This document shows positions 40,001 through 61,148 of a DNA stretch of 64,000 nucleotides, piece after piece (position 1 is the stretch's first letter; every line of letters starts with the position of its first letter). A program made the translations under genes and the position numbers. The notes beneath the pieces were generated by a model that was not told where the DNA came from, did not search any database, and worked only from the letters and a program-made list of their open reading frames with translations. Source of the stretch: Chitinophaga pinensis (GTDB lineage Bacteria; Bacteroidota; Bacteroidia; Chitinophagales; Chitinophagaceae). The DNA lies in assembly GCA_945878115.1 (NCBI GenBank), contig CAMDVD010000003.1:1-64000 (forward strand), read 5' to 3'.

Positions 40001-41271
40001 TCTGGACCAGCATCTACACCTTGTAATACTTTAATCAAAATAACTTGATATGCCTTCAAAACAATGGGTTGACCAGTTGTACATGTAGAATCGGCAAATG
40101 TTAAAATCAAAGTATGGTCTCCGATATCGGATCCACTTGGTGTCCATGAAAATGTCCCAGTAACTGGATTACCACCTGCTAATGGAGAAGCTGTATATGT
40201 GGAGCCAGGACATGAACTTGCATTATTTCCATAGGTTTTTACATTATTACTTAATGAAGCACTTGTTGCTTGTACATCAAAACTCATCAATTGACCAGGG
40301 CAAACCATGAGCACATAAGGAGGCGTTGGCGGTAAAAGGACTGCACCTTGTAAATTTTGGACGGCAGTATTTAAGGAAGCACCGACAATTACAGGAGGTG
40401 AAGCATTACAGTTCAGTACATTTAATTGTACATCCCTTTGCGAAAAACCAACTTTCACTCCTGTTTGTTTGTCATATTCTTCTGCCTGAAATGCCAATAC
40501 ATAAACTCCTTGAGCGGTTGGCGTAAACGTAGCTGTACCAGTTTGAGCATCTACTACATAACCTAAAGGACCAATGGGACTTACTGGCAATGGATTAACC
40601 AATGAATTTCCACCTGTATAAGTAAAATTAGTACAGTTATCGTCTTTTGGTGTAATATTAGTAAATATAATAGAGTCGATATCTGGATCAACAGGGCCAT
40701 TCAAATATAAATTAGCTTGATTCACACAAACATATGGAATTGGATCTACTGTTAAAACTGGAGACGAATTAATTGGTCTGGCCACATTATTTAAACCTGC
40801 TTGAATACAAATCCCATTTGCTGGAATATTTAATATTGCACTATTTCGGCAACAGAAATTACTGAATTCAAAAACCCAATCAGTACAAGCCATTGGCAAA
40901 TCCACTATGGCGTTATAATGCCATTTTTCGTATGCCGGAAATATACTGGAAGAATTTTTACACCAATTGTCTACGTTAGCACATAGAGAACTTAAAGTAT
41001 CAATTCTACCATAACCTGTAGTATCTGCTTGAAAAGTTATATTTTGACCACATGTAACGGAAGATGCATTACAATAGAAAGTACCTAATGTTGGTCCTAA
41101 TGTTGCATTTCCAGATTTACAATCTCGATAAAGTATGATGTGAACTTTATATTTCAATGGAGAAATATATTCATAATAAATGTCCGCCGCCGCAATGTGA
41201 GAAGCCTTTACTTGACTACTTGCAAAAGAAATTAGCAGAATAAGAGATAAAAAACGGAAAAGTTTTTTCAT
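37060..41271 (-). CDS. Giant secreted protein with gliding-motility-associated (type B) C-terminal sorting domain
   Basis: 1,403 residues. Signal peptide 1-23 (FLSLILLISFASSQVKA). Several Ig/PKD-like beta domains follow, many Cys-rich (CPGQLMSFDVQA, GADTC-type PKD cores such as VDAGPDLVTC and VSAGGDHIIC). Residues about 640-807 and 905-1098 are two copies of one domain (each with a GWN...W DG pattern and ending in RPN-RF-C). The C-terminus (about 1310-1403) shows VPNAFTPNGDGNNDLF, VMNRWGQEIF and GWNGTFKGKPQDPATFYYLI, the CHU_C domain used for T9SS export and cell-surface retention. It is probably an adhesin or matrix protein; ligand unknown. No gene is cotranscribed. Confidence 0.9.
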   Translation of the reverse strand: MKKLFRFLSLILLISFASSQVKASHIAAADIYYEYISPLKYKVHIILYRDCKSGNATLGPTLGTFYCNASSVTCGQNITFQADTTGYGRIDTLSSLCANVDNWCKNSSSIFPAYEKWHYNAIVDLPMACTDWVFEFSNFCCRNSAILNIPANGICIQAGLNNVARPINSSPVLTVDPIPYVCVNQANLYLNGPVDPDIDSIIFTNITPKDDNCTNFTYTGGNSLVNPLPVSPIGPLGYVVDAQTGTATFTPTAQGVYVLAFQAEEYDKQTGVKVGFSQRDVQLNVLNCNASPPVIVGASLNTAVQNLQGAVLLPPTPPYVLMVCPGQLMSFDVQATSASLSNNVKTYGNNASSCPGSTYTASPLAGGNPVTGTFSWTPSGSDIGDHTLILTFADSTCTTGQPIVLKAYQVILIKVLQGVDAGPDLVTCNTADSVQLNATGPITVNQWNWIDISGGPAVGLSANNIKNPKAFPPSTTTYIINTNAQTACKNSDTVTVSIVPGITVSAGGDHIICANDSIQLLATATPAQFNPIIDWTPGNDLSDSTTMQPWASPLVTTDYLLTYHDDNGCKYTDHALVTVAGARPILNALSSEMNVCPGYPFQLFANAASQPCGYSVFPCNAGTSSFKTVGTDNIQQNQFSPYYTNWYEAYKTQILYTATELQAAGIRSGNIAAISWKVIAKGSDTMRNVRISIGCTNATQLDGTTGFLTGLVQVYSVPKYYSNLGWNVHTFPNNTNYFWDGVSNIVVQICYDVNGFSSNQDVVESSNTANTMVMHQNQFAGVGCNLIAASPLIGAVRPNTRFKTCETGTFNYSWGPSTTLDDFTKSNPYSSGIYNTTDFIVDVVAPNNANCVGHDTIQVVVDNSNSIDATVTPQILCEPGLVTLTGTPAGSPPRYDCGEENVTCSAPFNQYFAGIGVASSTALTPLYGSYAGGRSQMLFTVADLNALGITKGRIDSIALEVTNKTSTFGFNVYLKMGCTPLTQLSSFIPSSELKDVFQNANYNTLLGWNSFKLNTPFVWDGTSSLVVELCFYNGQFNTNGSGDAVSYSNYTNPQFYSQYSNYGGCEIPSAQFPSAPIVSTARPNVRFSLCDIPNKVWKYKWVPGTFVFDTTAGVTTAYVNNTTTYNVYTTGGNKCEVNDSVTVTLSVHDLSVRPMDTVICEGDSYQAFATGSGNAPSESFSWTDEFGGTSGLSCTTCANPIILPPTGGVHTYTCVRTDAYNCSDAITIKVTTNPKPIISILNGDSITIKYLQEVNLIATGGQVYNWTPVWGTNNPNVANIIVSPAEPTMYYVYSLNNYGCRNWDSIYVNIDYHDNLSVPNAFTPNGDGNNDLFRVTNLTFQNVQEFKVMNRWGQEIFSASDNRGWNGTFKGKPQDPATFYYLIKVAYPDGSTRMFKGDVILIR

Positions 41272-42015: not shown

Positions 42016-42049
42016 CAAATATATCTTGTAGAAATTTAGTTGGTAACAA
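42016..42049 (-). promoter_or_regulatory. Candidate promoter for trxA
   Basis: Minus strand TTG, 23 bp spacer, TATATTTG (42016-42023). The spacer is at the long end of the accepted range, and the -33 part lies inside the 3' end of dnaE. Confidence 0.55.
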
Positions 42050-45000
42050 CTTTATACACAAGGCCGTTCATTTTTGTTAACTCCTCAAGAAAAGCGTCAT
42101 TCAATTCTATTTTTTTATATGGAGTATACATCTTGATTTGCTCCTGTGTGCTCAAATCTACAACTTGTATACCAAGCTCACAACTGCCTGTCTTTTCGGC
42201 ATGTTTTCTAACAATATTCACAAATTCGTCATCTAATTTTTGCAATGCGATTTCAATTGTCAGTCTTTTGGTCAACAGTTTTTTTACATTTTCTAGCAAA
42301 GTCAAACTCAATACTTTAAATTCAAATTGATCTTCTTGCTGCCATCTAGTTTGAAATCGACCAGAAATCATTATCTTATTATCCAGCACTAACATATCCT
42401 TAAATTTAAGATAATCTTCCTTGAATAAGGAAAACTCATATTCTCCATTATAATCGACCAATTTGAAACGGCCGAAATGTGTGCCTTTCTTTGAAATTTG
42501 ATGCCGAACTTCCGATATATATCCCGCGATTCGCAAGGGCCTGGATTTATTATAATCAGCATCTAATTCTGTCAATGGCGTAAAGCCATAATTATTCATC
42601 TCAAACAAAAATCCATCCAATGGATGAGCACTGATGTAAATGCCAACCATATCTTTTTCTTTACGTAAAGTTTCAGACAATATCCATGGATCACATGTAT
42701 ATAATTTAGGTTTAGCAACTGCTGGTAATTCCCCATCTCCAAACAAGCTCTGTGTAAGGGTATTGGCATTACTTATTCTACTTTGCCCGAAACGAATTAT
42801 TTTTTCTAGGTTAGATTCTCGTTCTCCAATACCAGTAAAAAAATATTGGGCCCGATGTATATCGGCAAAGCAATCTAATGCACCAGCCATGACTAAACTT
42901 TCCAATGTTTTTTTACTCACCGCTCTAGCACTCAATCGTTCCACCATATGATACACATCATCGTAAGCCCCATTCATCTCACGTTCTGCTATCACTTCCA
43001 TAATTGCTGCATCGCCAACGCCTTTAATGGCACCTAATCCAAATCGAATAACACCATTTTTGTTCACACTAAATGCCTTCTTACTTTCATTTACATTGGG
43101 ACCTAAAACTTGTACACCAATACGTTGACATTCTTTCATATACTTTGAAATATCTTCCGTATTGCCTTGCGCGTTAAGCAAAGCCGCCATATATTCTGCA
43201 GTATAATTTGCTTTTAAATAAGCAGTTTGATAGGCAAGGTAAGCGTAACATGTCGAGTGCGATTTATTAAAGGCATATTGAGCGAAAGCTTCCCAATCAG
43301 TCCAAATTTTTTCGCATTTATCCAAAGGGTGTTGATTTGCAGCACAGCCATCCAAAAATTTAGATTTCATTTTTTGAAGCACTTCAATTTGCTTTTTACC
43401 CATTGCTTTACGCAATATATCTGCCTCTCCTTTAGTAAAATTTGCCAATTTCTGTGATAACAACATTACCTGCTCTTGATAAACCGTAATACCATAGGTT
43501 TCTTTAAGAAACTCCTCCATTTCAGGCAAATCATAAATTATTTCTTTTCGGCCATGTTTCCGATCAATAAAATCTGGAATATACTCAATAGGACCTGGAC
43601 GAAACAATGCATTCATAGCAATCAAATCTTCAATATTCGTAGGTTTCAATTCCCTCAAATGCTTTTTCATGCCAATAGAAGCGAATTGAAATGTGCCTTC
43701 GGTATCTCCATTCTGATACAAAGCATAAGTAGCTTCATCATCTAACGGAATCTCATCAATTGCTATATCAACTTGGTGATTCTCTTTAATAAATAAAAGT
43801 GCGTCCCGTATAATGCTTAAATTACTTAAACCTAGAACATCTATTTTGATAGCTCCTGCTTCTTCTACAATATTTCCTGAAAATTGCGTAACGTATAAAT
43901 CAATATCTTTTTGTTTACAGAGCGGCATAATCTCCATCAAATCCTTTGGTCCTATAATTATACCTGCCGCGTGAATACCAGTATTACGAACTGTACCTTC
44001 CAATTTTTCTGCTTCATGTAAAATAACACCTTTCACATTATCGCTTTGATAAATAGCTTGAAGTTTTTGTATGTTCTGAATTTCCTCAGCAGTAACATTA
44101 TCCTTTTTCTTCAATTCTGCTTCAGTAATGTGTAAACACTCACCCAATGAAGTACCTGGCCGATCAGGAATCAATTTTGCCATCATATTACTTTCATCCA
44201 ATGGCAAATCCATAACACGCGCCACATCCTTTATGCTACTTTTTGCAGCCATTGTTCCGTATGTAATAATGTGCGCTACTTGATTTCGACCATATTTATC
44301 TACGATATATTCTACAACCTTACCTCTACCAATATCATCAAAGTCGGTATCAATATCTGGCATGGTTGCACGTTCTGGATTAAGGAAACGTTCAAAAAGT
44401 AAATTATATTTTAATGGATCTATATTCGTAATGCCAATACAATAAGCAACAACAGAACCGGCAGCGGAACCACGTCCTGGTCCAACCAGCACACCCATTT
44501 TTTTTGTGGAAGTAATAATATCTGAAACAATTAGAAAATAACCAGCAAATCCCATTTCACGGATAACACCTAATTCAAATTTTAAGCGCGTTTCTAACTC
44601 TGGCGTAAATATTTTATATCGAATTTTTGCACCTTCGTAAGTTAAAAATTCTAAGTATTCAATCTGTGTTTTAAATGGTTCTGGCAATGGAAAATTAGGC
44701 AACAACAAATCATTCGTAACACTAATCAATTCTATTTTATCTACTACTTCATTGGTATTATCAATGGCTTGAGGCAGATCCGCAAATAGCTCCGTCATTT
44801 GGGCAGTATTCTTGAAAAAGAATTGATTATTATAAAAAGCAAATCTTGAATTTCGCTTCACTTCAGGATCATCTACAAACTCTTTCATTTTGGGCGTACT
44901 TTGCAGTTCGCCAGTATTGACGCAGAGTAAAATATCATGCGCATTGCTATCTTCTTCTTCTACATAATGCGAATCATTACTTGCAATGACCTTCACGCCA

Positions 45001-45611
45001 TACTTTTGGGCGAGACGAAGCAATTCAATATTTACTTTGTTTTGGTCTGGAATATCATGTCGTTGCAATTCTACATAATAATCTTCTCCAAAAATATCCA
45101 GCCACCATTTGAATTCCTTTTCGCCCGCTTCAGGGCCATCTTTTAGAATAGTTCTTGGTACTGAAGCGCCTAGACAACAAGTTGAAGCTATAAGTCCTTC
45201 ATGGTATTGCAATATCAATTCCTTATCTATTCGTGGAAACTTGCTGTATAGTCCTTCTACAAAACCAAGTGAACAAAGCTTAATTAAATTTTTGTAGCCT
45301 TGCTTATTTTTAGCCAATAATAACTGATGATAACGAACATCTTTTTGCTCCTTCGTAAATTGCTGTACACGTCGATCTTCTACCAAATAAAATTCGCAGC
45401 CAATTATAGGTTTTACCAAAACATTACCCTTATCATCTTTATATTTCTTCGATTCTTTTACAAAATCGAAAACCCCAAACATATTCCCATGATCTGTAAT
45501 CGCAATGCCAGGCATACCATCAGCAACAGCTTTCTTGTATAGCTTTTTGATACTACTAGCACCATCGAGTAATGAATATTGGGTATGATTATGTAAATGG
45601 GAGAATTTCAT
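42036..45611 (-). CDS. dnaE: DNA polymerase III subunit alpha
   Basis: 1,191 residues. It is the catalytic polymerase of the replicative holoenzyme. The PHP domain opens KFSHLHNHTQYSLLDG and continues AITDHGNMFGVFDF. The polymerase active site includes GPGRGSAAGSVVAYC and PDIDTDFDD (catalytic Asp pair). FNKSHSTCYAYLAYQTAYLKANY is the tau/beta-side conserved helix, followed by helix-hairpin-helix (LGAIKGVGDAAI) and an OB fold near 1025-1065 (LRIAGYISEVRHQISKKG). The length is typical of Bacteroidota DnaE. A GAATTT spacer separates it from cdaA upstream. Confidence 0.97.
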   Translation of the reverse strand: MKFSHLHNHTQYSLLDGASSIKKLYKKAVADGMPGIAITDHGNMFGVFDFVKESKKYKDDKGNVLVKPIIGCEFYLVEDRRVQQFTKEQKDVRYHQLLLAKNKQGYKNLIKLCSLGFVEGLYSKFPRIDKELILQYHEGLIASTCCLGASVPRTILKDGPEAGEKEFKWWLDIFGEDYYVELQRHDIPDQNKVNIELLRLAQKYGVKVIASNDSHYVEEEDSNAHDILLCVNTGELQSTPKMKEFVDDPEVKRNSRFAFYNNQFFFKNTAQMTELFADLPQAIDNTNEVVDKIELISVTNDLLLPNFPLPEPFKTQIEYLEFLTYEGAKIRYKIFTPELETRLKFELGVIREMGFAGYFLIVSDIITSTKKMGVLVGPGRGSAAGSVVAYCIGITNIDPLKYNLLFERFLNPERATMPDIDTDFDDIGRGKVVEYIVDKYGRNQVAHIITYGTMAAKSSIKDVARVMDLPLDESNMMAKLIPDRPGTSLGECLHITEAELKKKDNVTAEEIQNIQKLQAIYQSDNVKGVILHEAEKLEGTVRNTGIHAAGIIIGPKDLMEIMPLCKQKDIDLYVTQFSGNIVEEAGAIKIDVLGLSNLSIIRDALLFIKENHQVDIAIDEIPLDDEATYALYQNGDTEGTFQFASIGMKKHLRELKPTNIEDLIAMNALFRPGPIEYIPDFIDRKHGRKEIIYDLPEMEEFLKETYGITVYQEQVMLLSQKLANFTKGEADILRKAMGKKQIEVLQKMKSKFLDGCAANQHPLDKCEKIWTDWEAFAQYAFNKSHSTCYAYLAYQTAYLKANYTAEYMAALLNAQGNTEDISKYMKECQRIGVQVLGPNVNESKKAFSVNKNGVIRFGLGAIKGVGDAAIMEVIAEREMNGAYDDVYHMVERLSARAVSKKTLESLVMAGALDCFADIHRAQYFFTGIGERESNLEKIIRFGQSRISNANTLTQSLFGDGELPAVAKPKLYTCDPWILSETLRKEKDMVGIYISAHPLDGFLFEMNNYGFTPLTELDADYNKSRPLRIAGYISEVRHQISKKGTHFGRFKLVDYNGEYEFSLFKEDYLKFKDMLVLDNKIMISGRFQTRWQQEDQFEFKVLSLTLLENVKKLLTKRLTIEIALQKLDDEFVNIVRKHAEKTGSCELGIQVVDLSTQEQIKMYTPYKKIELNDAFLEELTKMNGLVYKVVTN

Positions 45612-50508: not shown

Positions 50509-51216
50509 ATGCCGCAAAAAACAAAAATACTCTTAGTAGAAGATGATGCATCATTAGGATATGTAATCAAAGATAGTCTTGAAGATCGTGGATTTGAAGT
50601 AACCCATGCCACAGATGGGAATATTGGATGGCAACAATTTTCAAAGAATTTCTACGACCTATGCTTATTAGATGTTATGATGCCTTTGAAGGATGGATTT
50701 ACTTTGGCGGCCCAAATTCGAAGAAAAAATACCCATATTCCAATCTTATTCATTACTGCTAAAAGCATGCAGGAAGATCGAATAGCTGGTTTTAAAGCAG
50801 GTGGCGATGACTATATTACGAAGCCATTTAGCATGGAAGAATTAATGTTTAGAATAGATGTATTTTTAAAACGCACTAAAGGGGTAGATCCGGATGAGTT
50901 AATTTTTCAAATAGGCAACACTAGTTTTGACTTCCCTAATTTAGCTGTTAAAGGTCCAAATACGGATGTCAGATTGACCCAAAAGGAAGCGGATTTATTA
51001 CGTTTCTTTTGTTTGAACCCAAATCGAGTAGTCAAACGAGATGAAGTATTAACAAAAGTCTGGGGGAAAGATGATTATTTTTTAGGACGAAGTATGGATG
51101 TCTTCATTACTAAAATTAGAAAATACCTTAAAGAAGAAACCAACATTGAAATCCAAACAATACATGGAGTTGGGTTTAGATTTGTTAATCCTTCAGCAAA
51201 AGTGCCTGAAGAATAA
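50509..51216 (+). CDS. OmpR-family response regulator
   Basis: 235 residues. The receiver domain 1-120 has the acidic pair LLVEDDASLG, the phospho-acceptor Asp in LCLLDVMMPLKDGF, a Thr in LFITAKS and the Lys in YITKPFSMEEL. The C-terminal winged helix (about 135-230) shows RLTQKEADLLRFFCLNPNRVVKRDEVLTKVWG and SMDVFITKIRKYLKEE. It binds DNA and is regulated by the upstream kinase. RprY-like. The last 32 bp overlap the 3' end of the convergent HIT gene. Confidence 0.94.
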   Translation: MPQKTKILLVEDDASLGYVIKDSLEDRGFEVTHATDGNIGWQQFSKNFYDLCLLDVMMPLKDGFTLAAQIRRKNTHIPILFITAKSMQEDRIAGFKAGGDDYITKPFSMEELMFRIDVFLKRTKGVDPDELIFQIGNTSFDFPNLAVKGPNTDVRLTQKEADLLRFFCLNPNRVVKRDEVLTKVWGKDDYFLGRSMDVFITKIRKYLKEETNIEIQTIHGVGFRFVNPSAKVPEE

Positions 51217-51586
51217 CTTGCTGACTTTCTATTAATTCTTCGGGACTCAGCTTTAATTTTGGTTTGGTAAAATTCAAATCATCAGCTGAATTTAACGGAA
51301 CTAAATGCATATGGGCATGTGGCACTTCTAATCCTATAACACTTATACCGCATCGGTTACAAGTAAATGCTTTCTCAATTGCTTTGGCGATTGGTCTTGC
51401 AAATAGTAACCATGCTGCTAACGTTTTTTCATCCGCATCAAAAATTTTATTTACTTCAACTTTTGGCACAATTAAAACATGACCTTTTACCAATGGCATA
51501 ATATCTAGAAAAGCATAAAACAAATCATCCTCGGCTATTTTGTAAGACGGAATTTCGCCGCTAATGATTTTAGAGAATATGGACAT
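51185..51586 (-). CDS. HIT-family nucleotide hydrolase/transferase-like protein
   Basis: 133 residues. SIFSKIISGEIPSYKIAEDD opens the HIT fold, and the nucleotide-binding triad HAHMHLVPL is intact. HIT proteins act on nucleoside phosphoramidates or dinucleotides (Hint-like). It lies 11 bp after greA on the same strand and is probably cotranscribed with it. The 3' end overlaps the response regulator gene tail-to-tail by 32 bp. Confidence 0.9.
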   Translation of the reverse strand: MSIFSKIISGEIPSYKIAEDDLFYAFLDIMPLVKGHVLIVPKVEVNKIFDADEKTLAAWLLFARPIAKAIEKAFTCNRCGISVIGLEVPHAHMHLVPLNSADDLNFTKPKLKLSPEELIESQQVILQALLLKD

Positions 51587-51597
51587 AGAAAAAAATA

Positions 51598-52068
51598 CTA
51601 AATAAATATATTTTCAATTTTAAACTGCATAGCACCGCTTGGCGTTTGTACTTCTATCACTTCACCAACTTTTCCACCCAATAAACCTTTTCCAATTGGG
51701 GATGATACAGAAATTTTACCTTGTTTCAAATCAGCTTCGTTTTCCGAAACAATATGGTATTGCATAGTTTTCTTTGTTTTTACATTCACTATTTCTACTT
51801 TACTTAATACCGTTACAGAGCTAATATCAATATCATTAATATCAATCACACGAGCATTTACAACTGCAGTTTCCAAAATAGAAATTCTAGCTTCATGATG
51901 TCCTTGTGCTTCTTTGGCAGCGTCATATTCTGCATTTTCTTTTAAATCGCCTTTCTCTCTTGCTTCGGCAATAGCCTTTGCAATTTCCAATCTTCCAACT
52001 GATTTCAATTGATTCAGGTCTTCAATCATTTGATTCAAAGTTTCTTTAGTAACATATGTAATACTCAT
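51598..52068 (-). CDS. greA: Transcription elongation factor GreA
   Basis: 156 residues, standard length. The N-terminal coiled coil (YVTKETLNQMIEDLNQL, AIAEAREKGDLKENAEYDAAKEAQGHHEARI) with acidic tip inserts into the RNA polymerase secondary channel and stimulates cleavage of backtracked RNA. The C-terminal FKBP-like domain has ISVSSPIGKGLLGGKVGEVIEVQTPSG. First gene of a greA-HIT pair. Confidence 0.97.
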   Translation of the reverse strand: MSITYVTKETLNQMIEDLNQLKSVGRLEIAKAIAEAREKGDLKENAEYDAAKEAQGHHEARISILETAVVNARVIDINDIDISSVTVLSKVEIVNVKTKKTMQYHIVSENEADLKQGKISVSSPIGKGLLGGKVGEVIEVQTPSGAMQFKIENIFI

Positions 52069-52091: not shown

Positions 52092-52126
52092 AAAAGAATC
52101 AACGCTTTCATTAGAAAGCGTTGATT
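52092..52126 (-). terminator. Intrinsic terminator of the TonB-receptor/PorV operon
   Basis: AATCAACGCTTTC (52097-52109), loop ATTA, perfect complement GAAAGCGTTGATT (52114-52126), followed in the minus direction by a T-rich tract. It lies 29 bp past the stop of the PorV-like gene and before greA. Confidence 0.92.
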
Positions 52127-52154: not shown

Positions 52155-53273
52155 TTAATCTTCTTTATTACCACCACCAAGTGCTAAACGTATTCCTAGT
52201 GTATGCACACCATTAGAGATTCTTGTTGGTTTATAAGAATAATCAATAGCCAATCCAGGAGCATTATCTCCATTAGAAAATTTAGTATTGAAGGTAACAC
52301 CTGCACTTACTCCCGTAAAAAATGTTGTTGAAGATTCTTTGCTTCCAATATTAGGTTCGTAACGGTATGCAGCTCTCAACATAAATTTTTCTTTGAATGC
52401 ATACTCGGCTCCTACACCAACCCAATCTGCACTAAAAGCATTAGAAATAAAACTAAACATTGGTGACAATCTATGTTGTGGTTTTACATTTCCCTTTTTA
52501 CTAGTGCTATCTGTAGCAGAAGATTTAGCTTTATCTAAATAAAAATCATAGGATACACCAATACTTAATTGAGATGGTAATGAAAATTTTTCAGATCTAG
52601 ATTCTACGGTCAATTCATTTGCAAAATCTGGGGTTGATCCATTGAAACTAAATCCATCTCCTGCAAAACGAAGGTTAGTACCAACATTTCTTAAGGTAAT
52701 TCCCATATGAAATTCGTCATTCTTCCCGTTAGTATATTGAACACCACCATCAAAACCTACAGCACTTGCCTTAATATTACTAATTGCTTCATTCACATAA
52801 GTAATACCTAAACCTGCACACATTGTTTTTGAAAATGCCCGACCTAAACCAAATGAAAAATTCAAGAATGATGGTTTGTAATTACCTATTCCACCTTCTG
52901 GCGAAGTAGCTGTCGTTATAGGAATATCACCATATCCGAAGCTCATTATATTTACACCCAATACACCAACATCACCCAAATTATTTGCAAAGCTTAAATT
53001 ACTAATACTCATACCTGTTCCGGCAAGATATCTAGTGTGTGCAAATGCAATCTCTGTATTTTTGGTTTTCGCAAGCCCAGCAGTATTGCATTTCAGTGCT
53101 TCCGCACCAGAAACCCAAGCACAATTAAGCCCGAATAATCCGCCAGTTCTACCCCACGGATTCAATAATAATTCACCAGCCCCACCTTGTCCGGTACGAT
53201 CCTTATTACCTGCCATTACACTCAAGCCAATACACATGGATAATGCTATGAGTTTTATTTTCTTATGTATCAT
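52155..53273 (-). CDS. PorV/PorQ-family outer-membrane beta-barrel protein
   Basis: 372 residues. Signal peptide about 1-21 (KLIALSMCIGLSVMA). The N-terminal LLLNPWGRTGGLFGLNCAWVSGAEALKCNTAGLA matches, in its G-x-NP-AxLA-like pattern, the PorV/PorQ (UPF0164) family, followed by alternating beta strands typical of a 14-stranded FadL-like barrel (GLGITYVNEAISNIKASAVGFD, AAYRYEPNIGSK). The Cys residues near the N-terminus (CAWVS ... CNTAG) may form a disulfide. PorV proteins shuttle T9SS substrates to the attachment complex. Last gene of a three-gene operon, 39 bp after the giant secreted protein. Confidence 0.85.
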   Translation of the reverse strand: MIHKKIKLIALSMCIGLSVMAGNKDRTGQGGAGELLLNPWGRTGGLFGLNCAWVSGAEALKCNTAGLAKTKNTEIAFAHTRYLAGTGMSISNLSFANNLGDVGVLGVNIMSFGYGDIPITTATSPEGGIGNYKPSFLNFSFGLGRAFSKTMCAGLGITYVNEAISNIKASAVGFDGGVQYTNGKNDEFHMGITLRNVGTNLRFAGDGFSFNGSTPDFANELTVESRSEKFSLPSQLSIGVSYDFYLDKAKSSATDSTSKKGNVKPQHRLSPMFSFISNAFSADWVGVGAEYAFKEKFMLRAAYRYEPNIGSKESSTTFFTGVSAGVTFNTKFSNGDNAPGLAIDYSYKPTRISNGVHTLGIRLALGGGNKED

Positions 53274-53312
53274 ATGTTGAAAATCTGTCGTTATAGAATT
53301 AAAAATATACTA

Positions 53313-56300
53313 TTAAAAGCTGGTAATATCTGTAGGTCTCATGGCACCAAACCACTTCAATACAGTTTCTCCAATACCTGGTAAATTAACATGGACTAAA
53401 TACAAACCGCTTGCAATAGGAATACCCTTATCATTTTTTATATCCCAATCTACGTAAGCGGTTTTATTATCATTCTTCTTTATTGTTTTTATTAAATTAC
53501 CATCAATCGTAAATATCTTAATTATAGCCTCATCAGGTAAATTAATGATTCTCACTTTATTTTCCAATCTATTTGCTTCATATTCAGAATAAGCATAATA
53601 AGGATTTGGAACAACATGTATACGTTTAAAAATTTCGTCCTTATTATCTGTGTAGCTATTTCCTGCATCACCAAGTTTACGAGGAACGATATCATTTGTA
53701 CTAAATGTGTAAAGTGGCCATCCATTATTCTTTAAAGTTTGACTAGGATCTGGTTGATACCATGTATATGGACGAGTAACACGTATAGAAACTCTTGTCG
53801 TAGTTGGAATAAGCCCATCTTTTAAAGAACCTAGTTTCTTATTCGATTTAAGCATTGGTACACCAACCCACATCATTGATTTATATGCTGCTGTAAAAGT
53901 TGCATCTCCACCACTATTAATATTATTCTTAATAACAGAAGCGAAAGCGGCACCGCCATCATACTTAGTACGATGTACATAAATAATATGCTTACCGCCC
54001 CAAGCATTCACTTTACCATTTAATGGATCTCTTTCACGAGAAGTTGGATTCCAAATTAAATCATTGCCTCTATCAAATACATTGAATGATTCTTCGCCGA
54101 AGGAAATGTTTAATCTTTCCCCAGTTTCAATATTAATAGCGTACCCTGGGAACCAACTCATTCCTGAATCAGCAACATTGGAAGAATAAACTGGATTACC
54201 ATTAGCATCAACTTCTTTGTCCCAACCAGCATGTTTTCTTAAGGTATACTTATACGATCCTCGTTCTGCATTCGTCAAAGACCCCACATGATCAGTCATT
54301 TCAATAACAGCACATCTTGTCCATAAACTTTTATCTGCAGTAAATACTAAGTCAATACTGTAGATATCTTGTAATCTTGTACGGTTATTACCGCTACCGT
54401 ACATTAATCCAAATCCACATTCATCATTATTATTATTCGAAACTAAATTGTAAGGTGCAAAAGTACCATTCACAACTCCTTCAAAAGCTCCCAATTTATC
54501 TTTATTTTTTAATACTGGAAGACCTGTTCCTTGTGGAGGTGGCGAGATCGAATTATCCCAGTCAATCATTGAACATTGATTAACTCCATCATCCGTATTT
54601 GCAGTATACTCTATTCCTGATCTAATCCAATTATTGAACGATTTACCATCAACATCTTTAACACCTGATAACCAATTATTGTTCACATCTTCAAAAATAA
54701 CAGAAGAAGTAATTAATCCATTTGTCTTGCTTGATGAATCATTATCTCCAGGACGAATTTGTTGTTCAGCCGCTGCAGCTATTCCCCAGTTGATACTGTC
54801 CTTTCCACTAACTGAATATTTTCTTAAATACTTTTCACTGTATTGATCTAAATTAACATCACTATATATTTCTTGACCAGTTGTTGTGTTTACAATTCTC
54901 CATTTGGCACTATCTGCTTTTGCACCTAATGAAGTATCCACACCATTGGTGTAAAATGCATTTACGTCAAACCACACTTCGTAGTTTCCAGGTTTGATAC
55001 TATCTGGATTTACAACAGCTAGATGCAGTGGGCCAGCATTTCCTTTATACGTTGGAAAATAAGATTGACTATTTGCACCTAATGCTTCCATTTCAGATTC
55101 TTCTGTTAATTCCATAGCAATGCCACTATTTCCTTTTCCTTCAATTCTTTTTAATTGAATACCTGTACCATAATCTGCATAGGTTTGAATATATAAACTA
55201 TCTGTTGCAGGATGAGGCATTGCTGTAACAATTTGTATTGGTAATTCTCGACCATCTGTTCTACTTTCTATGTACTCTTTATCTTGTGTACTATCCGCCT
55301 TAGCCGGGTCAAAGGCTCTGAATTTATTATATCCATAAGCTACAACGATATAATAATAAGTCTTATAGTTTATTAAACTTTTAGAAGTACCTACAGCGAA
55401 CGCATCACTAATAATTTCAAAAGAATGTGATATTCCATTATCTGTACCGCTAGCCATTAACTTAGGAACATAATAGTTGGCAGAAATTTGTGGATCTACT
55501 TCGAAGTTTATTAAATCTTTTATGTCATTTTTTTTATCGCATTGAAATACAATTCTTGCTTTATCTGTATTAACTGATCCATCTTTACTTCGTAAATCAG
55601 AAGTTGATACACTTGCATTTTTCAATTGATAAACAATATATCCTTCAAATTTATATAACGAATCAGGAGAACCATTTTTAAAAGCCTTTTTTGAAACTTC
55701 CCGTTGATAGGCATCTGAAGTACTAGTTCCCAAATTATAACCATACTTTTCACCAAAATTATTAGAACCTGGTAAATTATCTAAATCAAAAATTAATCTT
55801 TTATCTAAAGGTTGAACAACTACTTTAGGTGCTTGCGGCCCAAAAGGAAGTTTAAATGCGTTATCAAACAGATCCTGTGCTTTATCATCACATATTTGAA
55901 TTTTTGAGAAACAAGCTGAACTTCCGCCACCAACATTTGGTACCCAAACGGCACCTATCGTAATATTATTTGGCTCAGCACCAGGAATTAAAGGAAAAGG
56001 ACCAGAAGAGTGAATAAATCTTCTGTCATCTGGCACATTGCCACAACTAGCTTCAGACCAGCCACCTTTACAAGGATCTCCATAGAAAATGAATTTTGTT
56101 GAAGTACCTGCCGCTCTAGCGTTACAAGCTGTAGTAAATGGTTGACCATCCTTCCAAGTACCCGTAATATAACCATAATAATCATCAGTAACATCAGGAT
56201 TACCTGTTGGTCCACTGATATTATTAAAATAAGTAAATACAGTCATTTTCAATTCTGTATCCTTCGTTGTATTTGGTATTCTGTATTTAGGCCCTTGAAA

Positions 56301-57332
56301 ATAGTCAACACCAACCATTGGTATTTCAAAACCATAACCTGCTGCACCTTCATCATATCCATCTCCATTATAGAGAATGCCTAAACCACGTGCCGTGTCG
56401 CAACCTACGTAATCATCAAAAGCAGCACCTAAATCAGCGTCGCACCATGTAGCCATATAGGTACTATCTAATTGAGAAGTACTAAAATTATAAATTTTAT
56501 AATTATAAAAAGTAGATTCATTTAAACAATCATTTGTAGCGAATGCAAAAGCAGCAGCATGAATTTCTAATCCAATCGCATCTGAACCAGTTTCTGTTTT
56601 AATATCGCCTTTATCATTAAAAATCCACCAAATATATTGGTCTCCTACTATCTTAGGATAATCACCATTATTCCAATTATACTTACCATCGCCATCAATA
56701 TCCACGAAATCAGCCATGTCACGAGTAGGCGGATAAATCAAAGAATTACTAGAACTTTTGATATAAGGGTTTCCTTTTGCAGGCCACTCTTTTATGATAT
56801 CCGGTACAGCGGAAGCTCCAACTGATTGTATCTTATTTTTAATATCTATAGGATCTGTAAGTCCAGCAAAAATATTTTTAAATTTATTAATATCAGATGC
56901 ATTTATTTTCCAAAATCGGTCCCAATCAGCACATGTTTGGAATCCAATACTATAATTATTGGTCTCATCCAATGGTCCTGACCAATAATCATTACCAGTT
57001 TGACGATAGGTTTGGGCAGCAATTTTCAATATTCCCGAAGAAGCATCTATACCTCCAATCCAGAGTGAACCAGCAAACAATGAATTTTTATTACTTCCTT
57101 TTGGAACTTCATAAGAGGCTGTCCCTGTAGGAATATCCCACCACATATCACCGCCATCCATCAAATGCGATCTAACATTATTAACATCCAAATCAATAAC
57201 AGCAGTAGTTGCATTACAACCTGCAGCCGTTTTATGTAATCCTGCTTTGGCTTTTGCTCCAACATTCGGTAAGCCATAACTCGCATATACACTGATTGAT
57301 AATGCGAAAATTGATACAAGTATTTTTTTCAT
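53313..57332 (-). CDS. Giant secreted protein with FlgD/T9SS-like C-terminus
   Basis: 1,339 residues. Signal peptide about 1-20 (VSIFALSISVYASYG). The N-terminus contains DLDVNNVRSHLMDGGDMWWD, LFAGSLWIGGIDASSG and TYRQTGNDYWSGPLD, a pattern I have seen in a family of large Bacteroidota proteins with no assigned function. Many Asp/Asn-rich stretches follow (VDIDGDGKYNWNNGDYP). The last 85 residues are FlgD-Ig/T9SS-like (HVVPNPYYAYSEYEANR, KIFTIDGNLIKTI, DIKNDKGIPIASGLYLVHV), ending in FGAMRPTDITSF, not a basic tail. It lies between a TonB-dependent receptor (21 bp upstream) and a PorV-like barrel, and is probably surface-exposed. Confidence 0.87.
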   Translation of the reverse strand: MKKILVSIFALSISVYASYGLPNVGAKAKAGLHKTAAGCNATTAVIDLDVNNVRSHLMDGGDMWWDIPTGTASYEVPKGSNKNSLFAGSLWIGGIDASSGILKIAAQTYRQTGNDYWSGPLDETNNYSIGFQTCADWDRFWKINASDINKFKNIFAGLTDPIDIKNKIQSVGASAVPDIIKEWPAKGNPYIKSSSNSLIYPPTRDMADFVDIDGDGKYNWNNGDYPKIVGDQYIWWIFNDKGDIKTETGSDAIGLEIHAAAFAFATNDCLNESTFYNYKIYNFSTSQLDSTYMATWCDADLGAAFDDYVGCDTARGLGILYNGDGYDEGAAGYGFEIPMVGVDYFQGPKYRIPNTTKDTELKMTVFTYFNNISGPTGNPDVTDDYYGYITGTWKDGQPFTTACNARAAGTSTKFIFYGDPCKGGWSEASCGNVPDDRRFIHSSGPFPLIPGAEPNNITIGAVWVPNVGGGSSACFSKIQICDDKAQDLFDNAFKLPFGPQAPKVVVQPLDKRLIFDLDNLPGSNNFGEKYGYNLGTSTSDAYQREVSKKAFKNGSPDSLYKFEGYIVYQLKNASVSTSDLRSKDGSVNTDKARIVFQCDKKNDIKDLINFEVDPQISANYYVPKLMASGTDNGISHSFEIISDAFAVGTSKSLINYKTYYYIVVAYGYNKFRAFDPAKADSTQDKEYIESRTDGRELPIQIVTAMPHPATDSLYIQTYADYGTGIQLKRIEGKGNSGIAMELTEESEMEALGANSQSYFPTYKGNAGPLHLAVVNPDSIKPGNYEVWFDVNAFYTNGVDTSLGAKADSAKWRIVNTTTGQEIYSDVNLDQYSEKYLRKYSVSGKDSINWGIAAAAEQQIRPGDNDSSSKTNGLITSSVIFEDVNNNWLSGVKDVDGKSFNNWIRSGIEYTANTDDGVNQCSMIDWDNSISPPPQGTGLPVLKNKDKLGAFEGVVNGTFAPYNLVSNNNNDECGFGLMYGSGNNRTRLQDIYSIDLVFTADKSLWTRCAVIEMTDHVGSLTNAERGSYKYTLRKHAGWDKEVDANGNPVYSSNVADSGMSWFPGYAINIETGERLNISFGEESFNVFDRGNDLIWNPTSRERDPLNGKVNAWGGKHIIYVHRTKYDGGAAFASVIKNNINSGGDATFTAAYKSMMWVGVPMLKSNKKLGSLKDGLIPTTTRVSIRVTRPYTWYQPDPSQTLKNNGWPLYTFSTNDIVPRKLGDAGNSYTDNKDEIFKRIHVVPNPYYAYSEYEANRLENKVRIINLPDEAIIKIFTIDGNLIKTIKKNDNKTAYVDWDIKNDKGIPIASGLYLVHVNLPGIGETVLKWFGAMRPTDITSF

Positions 57333-57353
57333 TTTCTAACTTTTGTATTATAA

Positions 57354-60300
57354 TTAAAAGGAAAGGTCAAAGCCAATATTAATTCTACGTGGATTGTTGT
57401 AATTATCCGGATTTAATAACTTCGCATTATATAAGTCTGTATACGCCTTTTTAAATTGAATATTGCTCAAACTTTGAATACCTTGTGGTGAAGTTAAATA
57501 ACCATCATCATTTGCAACACCTGTATAACCATATACACCTATTGCACTTTTTGTATTCAATAGGTTGGATATAAATACATAAACATTTGCAAAAAGTGGA
57601 TTACCAGATTTGATTACTTTCCCTTCAGCATCTTTTTTGGAACCATAAGTACCTAAATTAATATTCTTATCGATTCTAGTACTCAATTCAAATTGCCATG
57701 GTAAACGTGAACCATTGATAGTTCCGATAATTGGTTTACTATTGAAATCTCCTCCAACCAATGCGCTTGCGATCGCAGCTCTTGTATATGGCTCACCACT
57801 ACGTGAACGTAGGGCAAAATTGATTCCAGATTCTTTAAATGGATAATATTTCCCTATTTTAGGTCCTTTATCCTTGTCTTCATAACGATAATCTAATCGC
57901 ACATTGAACATATGTCGAGAATCAAATGACAAAGGATTTACAGTACGTAAATTGGGTTGACCAGAAGCCAATAAACTACTCTGTGAAGTAGCAGAACTAC
58001 CTGTCCCCTCAGCAAATTGCAAAGTATAATCTACTTGACAACGAATAGGTCCAGTTTTTCTGAAATCCAATTTAACGGTTGCTCCTTTGGTAGAAGAAAA
58101 GTCTCTATTGCCATAAGATTGATAAGTAATTGGGTAAGCTAAAATAAGTCTTTGCAATTGAATTTCATTCTTTCTTTCTTTTGCGTATACCTCTATGGTT
58201 AGCGCCGCTTTCTTAGAAATTTTTTGCGTATAACCTAATGAATAATTAATAGCTTTTTGCATTTTCAAATTACCATTATTAATGGTAGCTTGTCTTTCTG
58301 CCAAGAAATAATAATCATCAGGTCCAACGGTATTATTCGAGCTAGGTGTTTGTGTTACTACATCGTAGTTCCCGTAAAATAACGCATTTTCTGAAATAGG
58401 AAATGAGAACTGAATACGTGGAGACAATGAAATTTCTGGCTTATAATCTTGAAAAGAGCTATTCGGATTGAATGTAGCACTTTTTATACTGTCTGTTTTG
58501 TTGATTAACCAAGGTTGAATTGGCAAGCCTCCAGCATACAAACCAGAAAGGATAGTTGGATCTCCAATTTCCTTTCCGAATGGATCATACCAAGTATCTC
58601 CTTTTCTATAACCAACAACTGTTGGTTTTGCGGATTGGTTATTATCCACATAAACTACATAATCTTTATCAAATGTAGAAACAGATGGTGCCAAATTATC
58701 ATTATTCTCTTTATCTTGAACTAGGGCATAAGAGCCTTCCACAATATCGCCAGCTTTTCTTACACCATATAAGGAATAAGGATCTTTCAATACTTTTTGA
58801 TTCGCATCATAACGATCGATACGTAAGCCTATATTGAAATTAAAATCTTTATAAGAAAACTTATCCAAAATATAACCAAACATATAAATAGGTCTAAATG
58901 CGCCAACAGATCTGGTATAATCCCCTCTAGAGTCTGTTTTGGTCCAAAAGTCATTAAAGCTTGGTTGCTTTTTCAATTTTTTACCAAGGTAATCATAACC
59001 TAAATAACTCACATAATCATTACCGTCATTGAGTAAATCATCGGCAGAAAACATATCTAAAGAGAAAGTTTTAGGGTTTAAATAGTCAATGTCAATTAAA
59101 TCTTTATTTCTCTCATCACCATACAATTTTTTACGCAATTCTTTATCGAATCTTGCTTGATCAGAGGCAACATAAGCTCTGTCATATTTAATAGAATCAA
59201 ATGGGCTCATTACTGCTACACCAGCTATTATTTGATCATAAGTATAAGAAACCCCACCAATAATATATTGCGGATTGTCTAAATCTAAATTTTGAATTTG
59301 ACGGTTAGTTACCAAACGCATAAGACTCCAAAGACCTGATGCTGCAATACCGTAAGACCTTCTTGTTTGTTGATCATATCCGATTCCAAATTGGATGTTG
59401 TGCGTAATAGGATCTTTACGAACCCCATTTTTACCTCCTTGGTCAATATCTAAAGACGCATCTAAATTTATAGAAACTTGATCTGATTCAGCATAGCTAT
59501 AACTGCTAATCTGTGCGCCTGGCGAAGTCCACAAACTATAAACAGACGGTGCACCATCTCCATTACGCAAAGCCCCATAGGATTGTAATTGCGTTAAATT
59601 TTGTTTTGGGAATCTATTATCTGCATAAACTGACTTGGTATAGTTTTCTAATAATGGATTAACTCCGCCTGGGGTAAATGTAACTGAATCAGTTCTTTCA
59701 CCAAAATACTTAATACCTAAATAACCACCTTTACCTGTATCCAACCCATACACATCTGAACGATATGTTTGGAATTGACCAATATAGCCATAGTCAAAAG
59801 TATTTCTTACATGTTTAGGATTAGCTCCGTCACTGTATTCTTTTTGATAAGACAATTGTAAAGTATAATACGCGTTTGATATTGCAGATTTTTTATCTCC
59901 CTCCTTTATTGCAGAAACACCTTTACCAAGCTTTTGGGTAAGGCGTGCAAAACCACGAGCAGAATAGTTTACATTAATTGAATTGGCTTCAGGTGCGAAT
60001 AAAGAATTTGAAAATGACCAACCTCTTCCTTTGCTATACACAAAATAAGTTCCTAAAGTCAAATTAATGTTTTCTGTAGCTTGAAAATCCAATTTACCCA
60101 CATAATTCAATCCATAAGATTGTGCATTTTGTTTTGCTTTTACTTTATCAAAATCATTAGCAGTCAATTGCTCAGCTGTAGATACGAAATTACCAGTTCC
60201 ATTTGGATTCGCTTGTAATGGATTACTTTGAATATTATCCAAAACAGAAGATTTTATAATTGTATTTTTATTTACATTAGGATTTGGATCCTTGTCGTAA

Positions 60301-61148
60301 TTACCAGATAAATTCAGCACATAACCAATTATTGGTTTTTTAACACCATTTTTCTTTCTGCTTAAGAATGGCCCACCAAGATCTAAGGAAATTAAATTAT
60401 TATTATAACCTTCAACTGAATGTTGTGCTTGTAAACTTCCAGCAAATTTTTCTTGTAAGCCTCTTGTATTAATACTAATTACACCACCTGTTGCATTTCC
60501 ATCCTTAGCGCTCATCCCATTCATTGTTACTTCCAAAGTACCGATTGCCCCTGGAGGTAAATTAGTTCCACGAGTACCACGAATCATGATTCCATCTACC
60601 TTATACAAAGTACCTGAAGAACGCCCTCCACCAATACTTACACTATTATCGTTTGATTTTGATTGAAAAACTCCACCTGTCAAAGAAACTAAATTACCTG
60701 TATTGGTTATTCCCGTATTTTTAATATCTTTAGCAGTAATTACATTTCTACCTGGTGAATTGGGGTCAATTAGTTTAACTCTTTCAGTGCTTACTACAAA
60801 ATCTTTTTTTGAGGTAGCAATTTTTTTCTCCAATTTAAATTCAACATTGGACCGTTTATCATTCCCGACAATAACTTTCGTTCTTTCTTCCCCAATATAT
60901 CCCGAATAAGATACTTTTACTGAATAAGTACCAGGTGTTAAAGGTTTAATTTTAAAATTCCCTTGTTCATCTGTTTTAGCACCTCCTTTAAAAACACCAC
61001 CTTCGAACGCTTGAACGGTAGCAAAATCCAATGGTTTCTCTTGATCATCCACTACTCTACCATAAATTTCTCCTCCAGATGAGGCTTGTCCAAACGCAAA
61101 ACTTGTTATAAATGTTAACAGGGCTAATAATCTTAATTTTTTTATCAT
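57354..61148 (-). CDS. TonB-dependent receptor with carboxypeptidase-regulatory-like N-terminal domain
   Basis: 1,264 residues. Signal peptide about 1-21 (LALLTFITSFAFGQ). Residues 25-110 are a CarboxypepD_reg-like beta sandwich (GEIYGRVVDDQEKPLDFATV, GTYSVKVSYSGYIGEE). The plug domain lies at about 130-260 (NTGNLVSLTGGVFQSKSND, YKVDGIMIRGTRGTNLPPGAIG, GGVISINTRG), and the remaining thousand residues form the 22-stranded barrel, ending in NIGFDLSF with the terminal aromatic residue needed for membrane insertion. It imports or handles a ligand using TonB energy. No SusD partner is present; instead the giant secreted protein and PorV-like gene follow. Promoter region carries repeated TGTTAA motifs. 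Confidence 0.93.
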   Translation of the reverse strand: MIKKLRLLALLTFITSFAFGQASSGGEIYGRVVDDQEKPLDFATVQAFEGGVFKGGAKTDEQGNFKIKPLTPGTYSVKVSYSGYIGEERTKVIVGNDKRSNVEFKLEKKIATSKKDFVVSTERVKLIDPNSPGRNVITAKDIKNTGITNTGNLVSLTGGVFQSKSNDNSVSIGGGRSSGTLYKVDGIMIRGTRGTNLPPGAIGTLEVTMNGMSAKDGNATGGVISINTRGLQEKFAGSLQAQHSVEGYNNNLISLDLGGPFLSRKKNGVKKPIIGYVLNLSGNYDKDPNPNVNKNTIIKSSVLDNIQSNPLQANPNGTGNFVSTAEQLTANDFDKVKAKQNAQSYGLNYVGKLDFQATENINLTLGTYFVYSKGRGWSFSNSLFAPEANSINVNYSARGFARLTQKLGKGVSAIKEGDKKSAISNAYYTLQLSYQKEYSDGANPKHVRNTFDYGYIGQFQTYRSDVYGLDTGKGGYLGIKYFGERTDSVTFTPGGVNPLLENYTKSVYADNRFPKQNLTQLQSYGALRNGDGAPSVYSLWTSPGAQISSYSYAESDQVSINLDASLDIDQGGKNGVRKDPITHNIQFGIGYDQQTRRSYGIAASGLWSLMRLVTNRQIQNLDLDNPQYIIGGVSYTYDQIIAGVAVMSPFDSIKYDRAYVASDQARFDKELRKKLYGDERNKDLIDIDYLNPKTFSLDMFSADDLLNDGNDYVSYLGYDYLGKKLKKQPSFNDFWTKTDSRGDYTRSVGAFRPIYMFGYILDKFSYKDFNFNIGLRIDRYDANQKVLKDPYSLYGVRKAGDIVEGSYALVQDKENNDNLAPSVSTFDKDYVVYVDNNQSAKPTVVGYRKGDTWYDPFGKEIGDPTILSGLYAGGLPIQPWLINKTDSIKSATFNPNSSFQDYKPEISLSPRIQFSFPISENALFYGNYDVVTQTPSSNNTVGPDDYYFLAERQATINNGNLKMQKAINYSLGYTQKISKKAALTIEVYAKERKNEIQLQRLILAYPITYQSYGNRDFSSTKGATVKLDFRKTGPIRCQVDYTLQFAEGTGSSATSQSSLLASGQPNLRTVNPLSFDSRHMFNVRLDYRYEDKDKGPKIGKYYPFKESGINFALRSRSGEPYTRAAIASALVGGDFNSKPIIGTINGSRLPWQFELSTRIDKNINLGTYGSKKDAEGKVIKSGNPLFANVYVFISNLLNTKSAIGVYGYTGVANDDGYLTSPQGIQSLSNIQFKKAYTDLYNAKLLNPDNYNNPRRINIGFDLSF

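Follow-up and report, generated by a model that had tools for sequence, protein, structure and literature searches.

In the type IX secretion system (T9SS), PorU and PorZ retain their C-terminal domains, with PorV holding PorU and PorQ holding PorZ (PMC5562754, PMC10202324), and a 2023 review puts forward that cognate PorV-like barrels may shield a sorting domain from cleavage (PMC10202324). For SprB, which has a type B domain, the gene of the PorP/SprF-type shuttle SprF lies directly downstream of the substrate gene, and the same source has type A domains all recognised by PorV (PMC12618676). SusC-SusD consists of a TonB-dependent receptor (TBDR) and a large extracellular partner encoded beside it. 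Here we describe a triad of genes, encoding a TBDR, a giant secreted protein and a PorV/PorQ-family outer-membrane barrel, in 64,000 nucleotides of Chitinophaga pinensis DNA (GenBank assembly GCA_945878115.1, contig CAMDVD010000003.1, positions 1 to 64,000), referred to as the window. The genome is 3.58 Mb in 101 contigs, complete by estimate, and the window is on contig 3. All three genes are on the minus strand: the TBDR at 57354..61148 (1264 aa), the giant at 53313..57332 (1339 aa) and the barrel at 52155..53273 (372 aa). The gaps of 21 and 39 bp and the shared direction given in a preliminary description of this DNA agree with an open reading frame (ORF) analysis of the window.

Like the PorZ-PorQ and PorU-PorV pairs, the triad encodes a secreted protein with a T9SS C-terminal domain and a PorV/PorQ-family barrel, which is proposed to hold it. 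It differs from them in that the barrel is on a separate branch, the giant has a beta-supersandwich of the sugar-enzyme type, a TBDR is co-encoded and several copies are present in some genomes. The shuttle gene directly downstream of its substrate gene is shared with SprB-SprF, although the barrel of the triad passes the PorV/PorQ family model and its domain is PorZ-like, and 'TonB' has 0 occurrences in PMC12618676. With SusC-SusD the triad shares a TBDR beside the gene of a large extracellular partner and, as proposed, the two-part logic. A plain SusCD system can nevertheless be rejected, since there is no SusC or SusD model match in the window; in addition, the partner lacks a lipoprotein pattern and carries a domain of T9SS type, and a third gene belongs to the triad. 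The genome as a whole has 0 matches to PF07980, the one SusD-like Pfam model searched, so that the absence of a SusD partner beside the receptor and the distinction from Sus systems, both pointed out in the preliminary description, are upheld.

Two other systems are alike in part. The chu_1276-chu_1280 genes of Cytophaga hutchinsonii, important for cellulose use, encode a TBDR-like protein and outer-membrane partners that are not SusD; compared by description only, they differ in encoding two SGBP-B-like partners, CHU_1278 and CHU_1279, and an endoglucanase, CHU_1280 (PMC12016534). In Myxococcus xanthus the TBDR Oar is functionally tied to the secreted protein PopC, which is a protease, and the available part of that source mentions no PorV-type barrel (PMC6434023). 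No description of the triad was found in the open-access literature searched, subscription papers and preprints being outside that scope. Each part is of a known kind; what appears to be new is how they are combined, how deep in the phylum this goes, and that the PorV-type barrels are private.

Conservation of the three-gene unit

Judged from sequence comparison, the three-gene unit is old and widely kept in one large bacterial group. The giant was matched in 121 of 149 genomes of the same taxonomic order (E<=1e-3, a few weakly), and in the best loci from other genomes of that order the TBDR, giant and barrel genes are adjacent and in order in every case (29/29). A scan of named genomes took 80 loci from at least 578, with labels that include Chitinophagales, Flavobacteriales, Crocinitomicaceae, Cryomorphaceae, Schleiferiaceae and Bacteroidales (titles of metagenome-assembled genomes, MAGs, as deposited). 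The TBDR is upstream in 71 of these, the barrel downstream in 72, and both are present in 70, with median gaps across 56 loci of 28 and 30.5 bp. L104 and L118 (our locus labels) are cut by contig ends. L110 and L111 have neither neighbour and are near contig ends, the 1.5 kb upstream at L110 being without a TBDR and the 6 kb downstream at L111 without a barrel.

Across the phylum, the triad is present in all 20 chosen regions, 18 of them outside the class and two with a TBDR truncated at the beginning of the contig. In 20 further chosen regions, mostly second copies, it is present in 13, one of which is ordered TBDR-barrel-giant and one of which overlaps a region already counted, and seven have giants without a regular triad. 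These regions were hand-picked, not random; L131 and L167 overlap, and L130 and L169 share one genus. The order receptor-barrel-giant is seen at L161 (9055-16721). Runs of at least two giant-like genes that do not each have a receptor and a barrel as immediate neighbours are found at L154, L155 (which reads X over a stretch), L160 and L165. The preliminary description had treated the three genes as one module, an idea that would fail were their homologues not neighbours in other genomes; in the order, in the named genomes and in the chosen regions of the phylum, they are.

The presence of the giant coincides with that of the T9SS translocon protein SprA. In a phylum sample of 296 genomes, 162 match the giant profile at E<=1e-3 and 71 match it strongly (E<=1e-40), while for 16 genomes, from two families, the match reaches no more than about E 1e-4 to 1e-8; weak matches may reflect the T9SS-type domain alone. 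SprA is found in 162/162 genomes with a giant match, against 66/134 without, and in 71/71 with a strong match, against 157/225 of the others. Of the 20 SprA-negative genomes listed, 17 come from one family, so this test is inflated by phylogeny.

Other genes are also kept at the locus. In the window, greA (51598..52068, minus strand; TIGR01462 165.9 bits, cut-off 139) and a gene for a histidine-triad (HIT)-like protein (51185..51586, minus strand; HinT-type matches below cut-offs, 60/130 bits) follow the barrel, and both stand outside the proposed machine. They are downstream in 66/80 and 62/80 loci, respectively, and a hydroxyacid dehydrogenase gene, serA-like by reading, is upstream of the TBDR in 28/80. 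A phosphoglycerate dehydrogenase was confirmed by model upstream of the out-of-class triads L135 and L139, and partly at L145. That the order and these neighbours are kept indicates an old locus. The linkage is a lasting one, the dehydrogenase gene being seen outside the class as well.

The preliminary description had placed a terminator after the last gene. There is a terminator-like hairpin past the barrel gene (52097..52126, minus strand), with 13 pairs and then CTTTTTT, and its stem is the longest among 7 hits in the region; however, 6.6 hits are expected by chance, so this hairpin is notable for its stem length only. The window has two more large minus-strand ORFs, at 37060-41271 (1403 aa) and 42036-45611 (1191 aa).

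The barrel, the giant and the receptor

The barrel passes the PorV/PorQ family model NF033709 with 130.3 bits (cut-off 90), as expected from its earlier reading as PorV-like, and is under both equivalog cut-offs, at 58.3/250 bits for PorV and 72.6/220 bits for PorQ. The genome's own PorV, PorQ and PorV2 score 460, 299 and 427 bits, and PorU-PorV, PorQ, and PorV2 with a PorU2-type gene are all encoded elsewhere in it, which bears out that the barrel is a paralogue belonging to the locus. PorV2 has its PorU2-type gene directly downstream (L042:1420-3542, contig 47 of the window genome), a second putative sortase pair of the genome; located elsewhere, this pair was dropped as a partner of the triad. 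A search with the barrel profile against solved structures found PorV (E 0.0011). The match to PorP/SprF models is far lower than that to the PorV family, TIGR03519 giving 22.6/90.55 bits and PF11751 barely passing (22.7 vs 22.3).

In a tree of 67 rows, 45 barrels, 43 of them from triads, are on one supported branch (95/82), separate from 12 PorV-type rows, PorQ, PorV2 and a FadL-like protein; the main-branch barrels L154 and L165 sit outside a regular triad. Six barrels of a divergent sub-branch are set apart from the main branch. The PorV-type rows are the PorV of the window's genome plus 11 proteins that rank as top hits of the family and were taken as PorV without a PorV-model check. Another row taken as PorV, L184, is probably in the wrong frame and has a very long branch. 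By tree and model scores, the barrel is placed within the PorV/PorQ family, on a separate branch. A general FadL-type transporter, which would have spoken against the module, is rejected by the model scores and by this branch, the barrel having no FadL or BamG match up to E 1 in NCBIfam or Pfam. One point in the preliminary description, that PorV also plugs SprA, is inexact: PorV spans the lateral opening of SprA, and sealing of the translocon is the task of Plug, which is a different protein (PMC10994853).

The giant has a signal peptide by eye, and a lipobox pattern is found in 0/80 giants, including that of the window. It ends in FGAMRPTDITSF, and its residues ~1229-1331 (53340..53648) are predicted to have the T9SS C-terminal domain fold, an Ig-like beta-sandwich as in PorZ, PorU and RemA. 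The nearest is that of PorZ (5m11, Z 9.7, root-mean-square deviation (rmsd) 2.9 over 90 residues), followed by PorU (6za2, Z 8.0) and the C-terminal domain of RemA (8gl6, Z 6.8). Of the FlgD/T9SS-like end previously noted, the T9SS part is therefore supported by fold, while in Pfam and NCBIfam there are only a weak FlgD-like match and a type A tail match under its cut-off (14 bits vs 23).

Homologues resemble PorZ as well. Among 21 of them, 13 match the PorZ model, 13 the type A tail (E<=0.05) and 8 PorU, with the best PorZ-model match (NF052228, cut-off 260 bits) at E 1.3e-9 and 37 bits; L045, 70% identical to the window's giant, matches at 1.8e-9. When homologues were scanned singly, all PorZ-model matches were confined to the C-terminal end of the model, and the type A cut-off (TIGR04183) was passed by one of eight (L139, 25.5 bits). 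As a control, nine ordinary T9SS cargo proteins from neighbouring genes were used, picked for ordinary-looking tails (a tenth protein supplied had no such domain); all nine pass the type A cut-off and one matches PorZ weakly. In this control, likeness to PorZ is the better discriminator of giants from ordinary cargo, and likeness to PorU fails to tell them apart.

The giant also has a conserved tail of ten residues at its C-terminus (53316..53345): all 80 giants compared have Asp at position -5, and all 80 have either Phe or Tyr at -1. Among giants of other classes, the final residue is Phe, Tyr or Leu in most of those from main-branch triads; in the six from the divergent sub-branch it is Lys, as in ordinary tails. 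The structure model has a pLDDT of 54 over these ten residues. A kept tail with low model confidence is what would be seen for a binding peptide.

Further evidence comes from six multi-copy genomes, each with at least 13 to 21 stretches matching the giant's C-terminal domain and 13 to 22 PorV-family barrels over the cut-off. At least 65 pairs of a giant-type domain followed by a PorV-family barrel, on the same strand and within 600 bp, are formed from 103 barrels and at least 101 domain stretches. This is five to fifteen pairs per genome among the matches listed, where a total of about 0.13 is expected; that expectation assumes uniform placement, and weak domain matches may be ordinary tails.

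The remainder of the giant was read from two overlapping structure models, both confident (mean pLDDT 90.8 for residues 22-720, and 86.5). Residues ~40-495 (55848..57215) resemble the beta-supersandwich that is the N-terminal domain of glycoside hydrolase (GH) enzymes of families GH15, GH94 and GH116 (best 9ju0, Z 19.3, rmsd 3.3, 252 aligned). Residues ~495-710 (55203..55850) are predicted to form a fibronectin type III-like (Fn3-like) domain (Z up to 9.6 across 99 residues), which is a fold of common occurrence. In neither model is the beta-supersandwich followed by a helical catalytic barrel, the Fn3-like domain coming next and both models consisting mostly of strands. The giant was thus rejected as a glycoside hydrolase, its N-terminal domain matching only the beta-sandwich part of these enzymes. 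An adhesin or S-layer role was dropped, nothing specific having been found. By sequence, the giant profile has no match at E<=0.1 among solved structures, and Pfam matches at E<=0.01 are seen in 2/21 family members, both to FlgD_ig.

The N-terminal pattern (of the GGDMWWD/SLWIGGID type) previously said to recur in other large proteins does so, in full-length homologues and also in shorter proteins of ~550 aa. These shorter proteins form a second family, which has only the N-terminal region of the giant (query ~35-490; for example G077:C262:6309-7778) and is present in multiple copies in several genomes.

The receptor has a CarboxypepD_reg N-terminal extension and a plug by Pfam scan (PF07715, 28.6 bits vs a cut-off of 23.9), and on this basis is a TBDR, the beta-barrel that follows being presumed. 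By model it is outside SusC, with no NCBIfam match up to E 1 and hence none to the SusC/RagA model TIGR04056; receptors from three other-class triads match that model far under its cut-off (52-82 vs 368 bits). Receptor relatives in other classes match TBDR models. Against solved structures the sole match of the receptor profile is to a short stretch of scaffoldin.

A proposed surface machine and its alternatives

We see an even chance that the giant is exported by the T9SS as a surface partner of the TBDR, is held next to it by a dedicated barrel, and works with the TBDR as SusD does with SusC. What the sequences show is the genes with their order and distribution, the types of domain, co-occurrence with the T9SS, the separate branch of the barrels and the domains lying next to barrels; export by the T9SS, a retained domain, assembly into a complex, substrate capture and import are inferred. 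The giant would leave the cell by Sec and then by the T9SS. The barrel, as a dedicated shuttle and anchor of the PorV/PorQ type, would take up the PorZ-like C-terminal domain with its conserved tail, and this domain would stay uncleaved, serving as the anchor; the barrel probably holds the giant in place. The beta-supersandwich and the domains after it would then sit over the TBDR as the extracellular substrate-binding partner, the role of the lipoprotein SusD at SusC.

The gene context is most informative on the divergent sub-branch. Among 44 neighbours of six divergent-branch triads are GH16 (6), CBM4_9 (3), LacI (3), GH130 (2), GH3 (1), sugar transporters and T9SS tails (9). L164 and L149 have GH16 or a GH16-type glucanase; L148, L161, L164 and L166 have carbohydrate-binding domains together with T9SS tails. 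Glycans are likely to be the substrates for part of this sub-branch. An uptake role is best supported there, and would extend to the window's copy by analogy. Directly after the triad, at L149 (5618-7318), L161 (7606-9045) and L166 (6048-7775), a PPIC-type peptidyl-prolyl isomerase of ~480-580 aa is encoded, and is perhaps a fourth member in those loci.

The contrast with SusD is seen in the window's own family. Of its 147 sampled genomes, 29 have the giant (E<=1e-10), and 21 of these 29 lack SusD (PF07980), whereas each of the 118 genomes without the giant has at least one SusD match; all 29 have at most two SusD matches, as do 4 of the 118.

Several observations weigh against the proposed machine. 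SusD is present in 32/71 phylum genomes with a strong giant match, five of them, of family f18, having several or many, so that replacement of SusD by the giant as a phylum-wide rule is not borne out and the clean contrast is confined to the window's family, where it may stem from few events. The C-terminal domain of a Tannerella cargo protein, which was contrasted with non-cleaved ones, is itself nearest PorZ and PorU in fold, and that study found no feature by which domains that are cleaved can be told from those that are not (PMC11285876); resembling PorZ or PorU is thus no proof that a domain is retained. PorU-model matches are found in 5/9 of the ordinary cargo proteins. The window's giant has no PorZ-model match, and its type A match (TIGR04183) is 14.0 bits, under the cut-off of 23. 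Among the 25 of 128 families listed for 96 neighbours of main-branch triads there are no sugar genes, and the divergent-branch locus L163 has c-type cytochromes in their place. Both neighbours of the giant are missing at L066, L067, L083, L095 and L106 despite room on each side, two of these giants being from MAGs that, going by record names, also carry a triad on a different contig (L064, L073), and L121 has the barrel without a TBDR. Our confidence is held at an even balance because of the SusD co-occurrence, the Tannerella domain and the PorU matches in cargo. At L163 (5297-7423) the cytochromes beside the triad are two of the c7 multihaem type, one MtrC/MtrF-like.

For the same three reasons, a wider reading is offered tentatively, as one that we think is rather doubtful. 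The triad may be an ancestral, phylum-wide alternative to SusCD, in which the lid of the TBDR is, in place of a lipoprotein, a T9SS-exported protein whose sorting domain is kept in a private PorV-type barrel. It would have been lost in the window's family where SusD expanded; in some other lineages five to fifteen domain-barrel pairs are present per genome. This would be a further class of T9SS signal and shuttle, contrary to the view that one PorV serves all type A domains.

Those reasons slightly favour the main rival, still unlikely in our estimation, that the triad is a second attachment or sorting complex, in which the PorZ-like giant would bring lipopolysaccharide (LPS) or another anchor to cargo and the TBDR would add TonB-driven movement, no nutrients being involved. 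The C-terminal domain is indeed nearest that of PorZ, the barrel scores closer to PorQ (73 bits) than to PorV (58), T9SS tails are found on 9/96 main-branch and 9/44 divergent-branch neighbours, and sugar genes are not prominent near main-branch triads. However, the PorZ model is matched at its C-terminal end only, the window genome already has PorU, PorV and PorQ, sugar genes are present at several divergent-branch loci, and five to fifteen pairs per genome, among the matches listed in six genomes, are more like substrate-specific systems. An export role for the TBDR with no need of the T9SS, as for PopC, whose secretion requires Oar and the Ton system (PMC6434023), appears improbable: the TBDR gene is ahead of the giant in most loci, but some giants have no adjacent TBDR, every sampled genome with a giant match has SprA, and both the T9SS-type domain of the giant and the T9SS shuttle family of the barrel argue otherwise.

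It is also quite improbable that the three products do not cooperate and that the locus is simply an old neighbourhood kept by vertical descent. The greA, HIT-like and dehydrogenase genes do show that linkage without obvious reason lasts here, yet triads recur at other sites without them, and in six genomes at least 65 of the 103 barrels are paired with a giant-type domain. With greA and the HIT-like gene taken into account, partial distance correlations among the three genes across 56 loci are 0.63-0.70, although this measure is crude, the sequences being too few to predict contacts, and carries no weight here. An accessory of outer-membrane protein assembly, like the FadL-like BamG together with BamH, its partner at the cell surface, in the BAM complex of Bacteroidota, shares the layout of a FadL-type barrel as a pillar under a large surface protein (PMC12611786) and is very improbable here. 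BamH is a lipoprotein, whereas no lipobox pattern is seen in 80 giants, and the window's barrel has no BamG match while another protein of the genome weakly matches BamG (60.7/250 bits). Furthermore, the giant is missing from 118/147 genomes of the family, while BamG and BamH are reported to be universal in the phylum (PMC12611786).

Meaning for type IX secretion and nutrient uptake

If the giant is a surface partner anchored by its own barrel at the TBDR, a single machine would combine the two outer-membrane systems best known from the phylum, namely type IX secretion and uptake that is driven by TonB and aided by a surface partner. This would suggest a feeding route for T9SS bacteria without SusD. 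The natural set of domain-barrel pairs would make testable the idea that cognate barrels protect sorting domains (PMC10202324), and the analysis would give a first reading for a protein family without its own Pfam model. The triad may be an undescribed way to build nutrient-catching machines on the cell surface.

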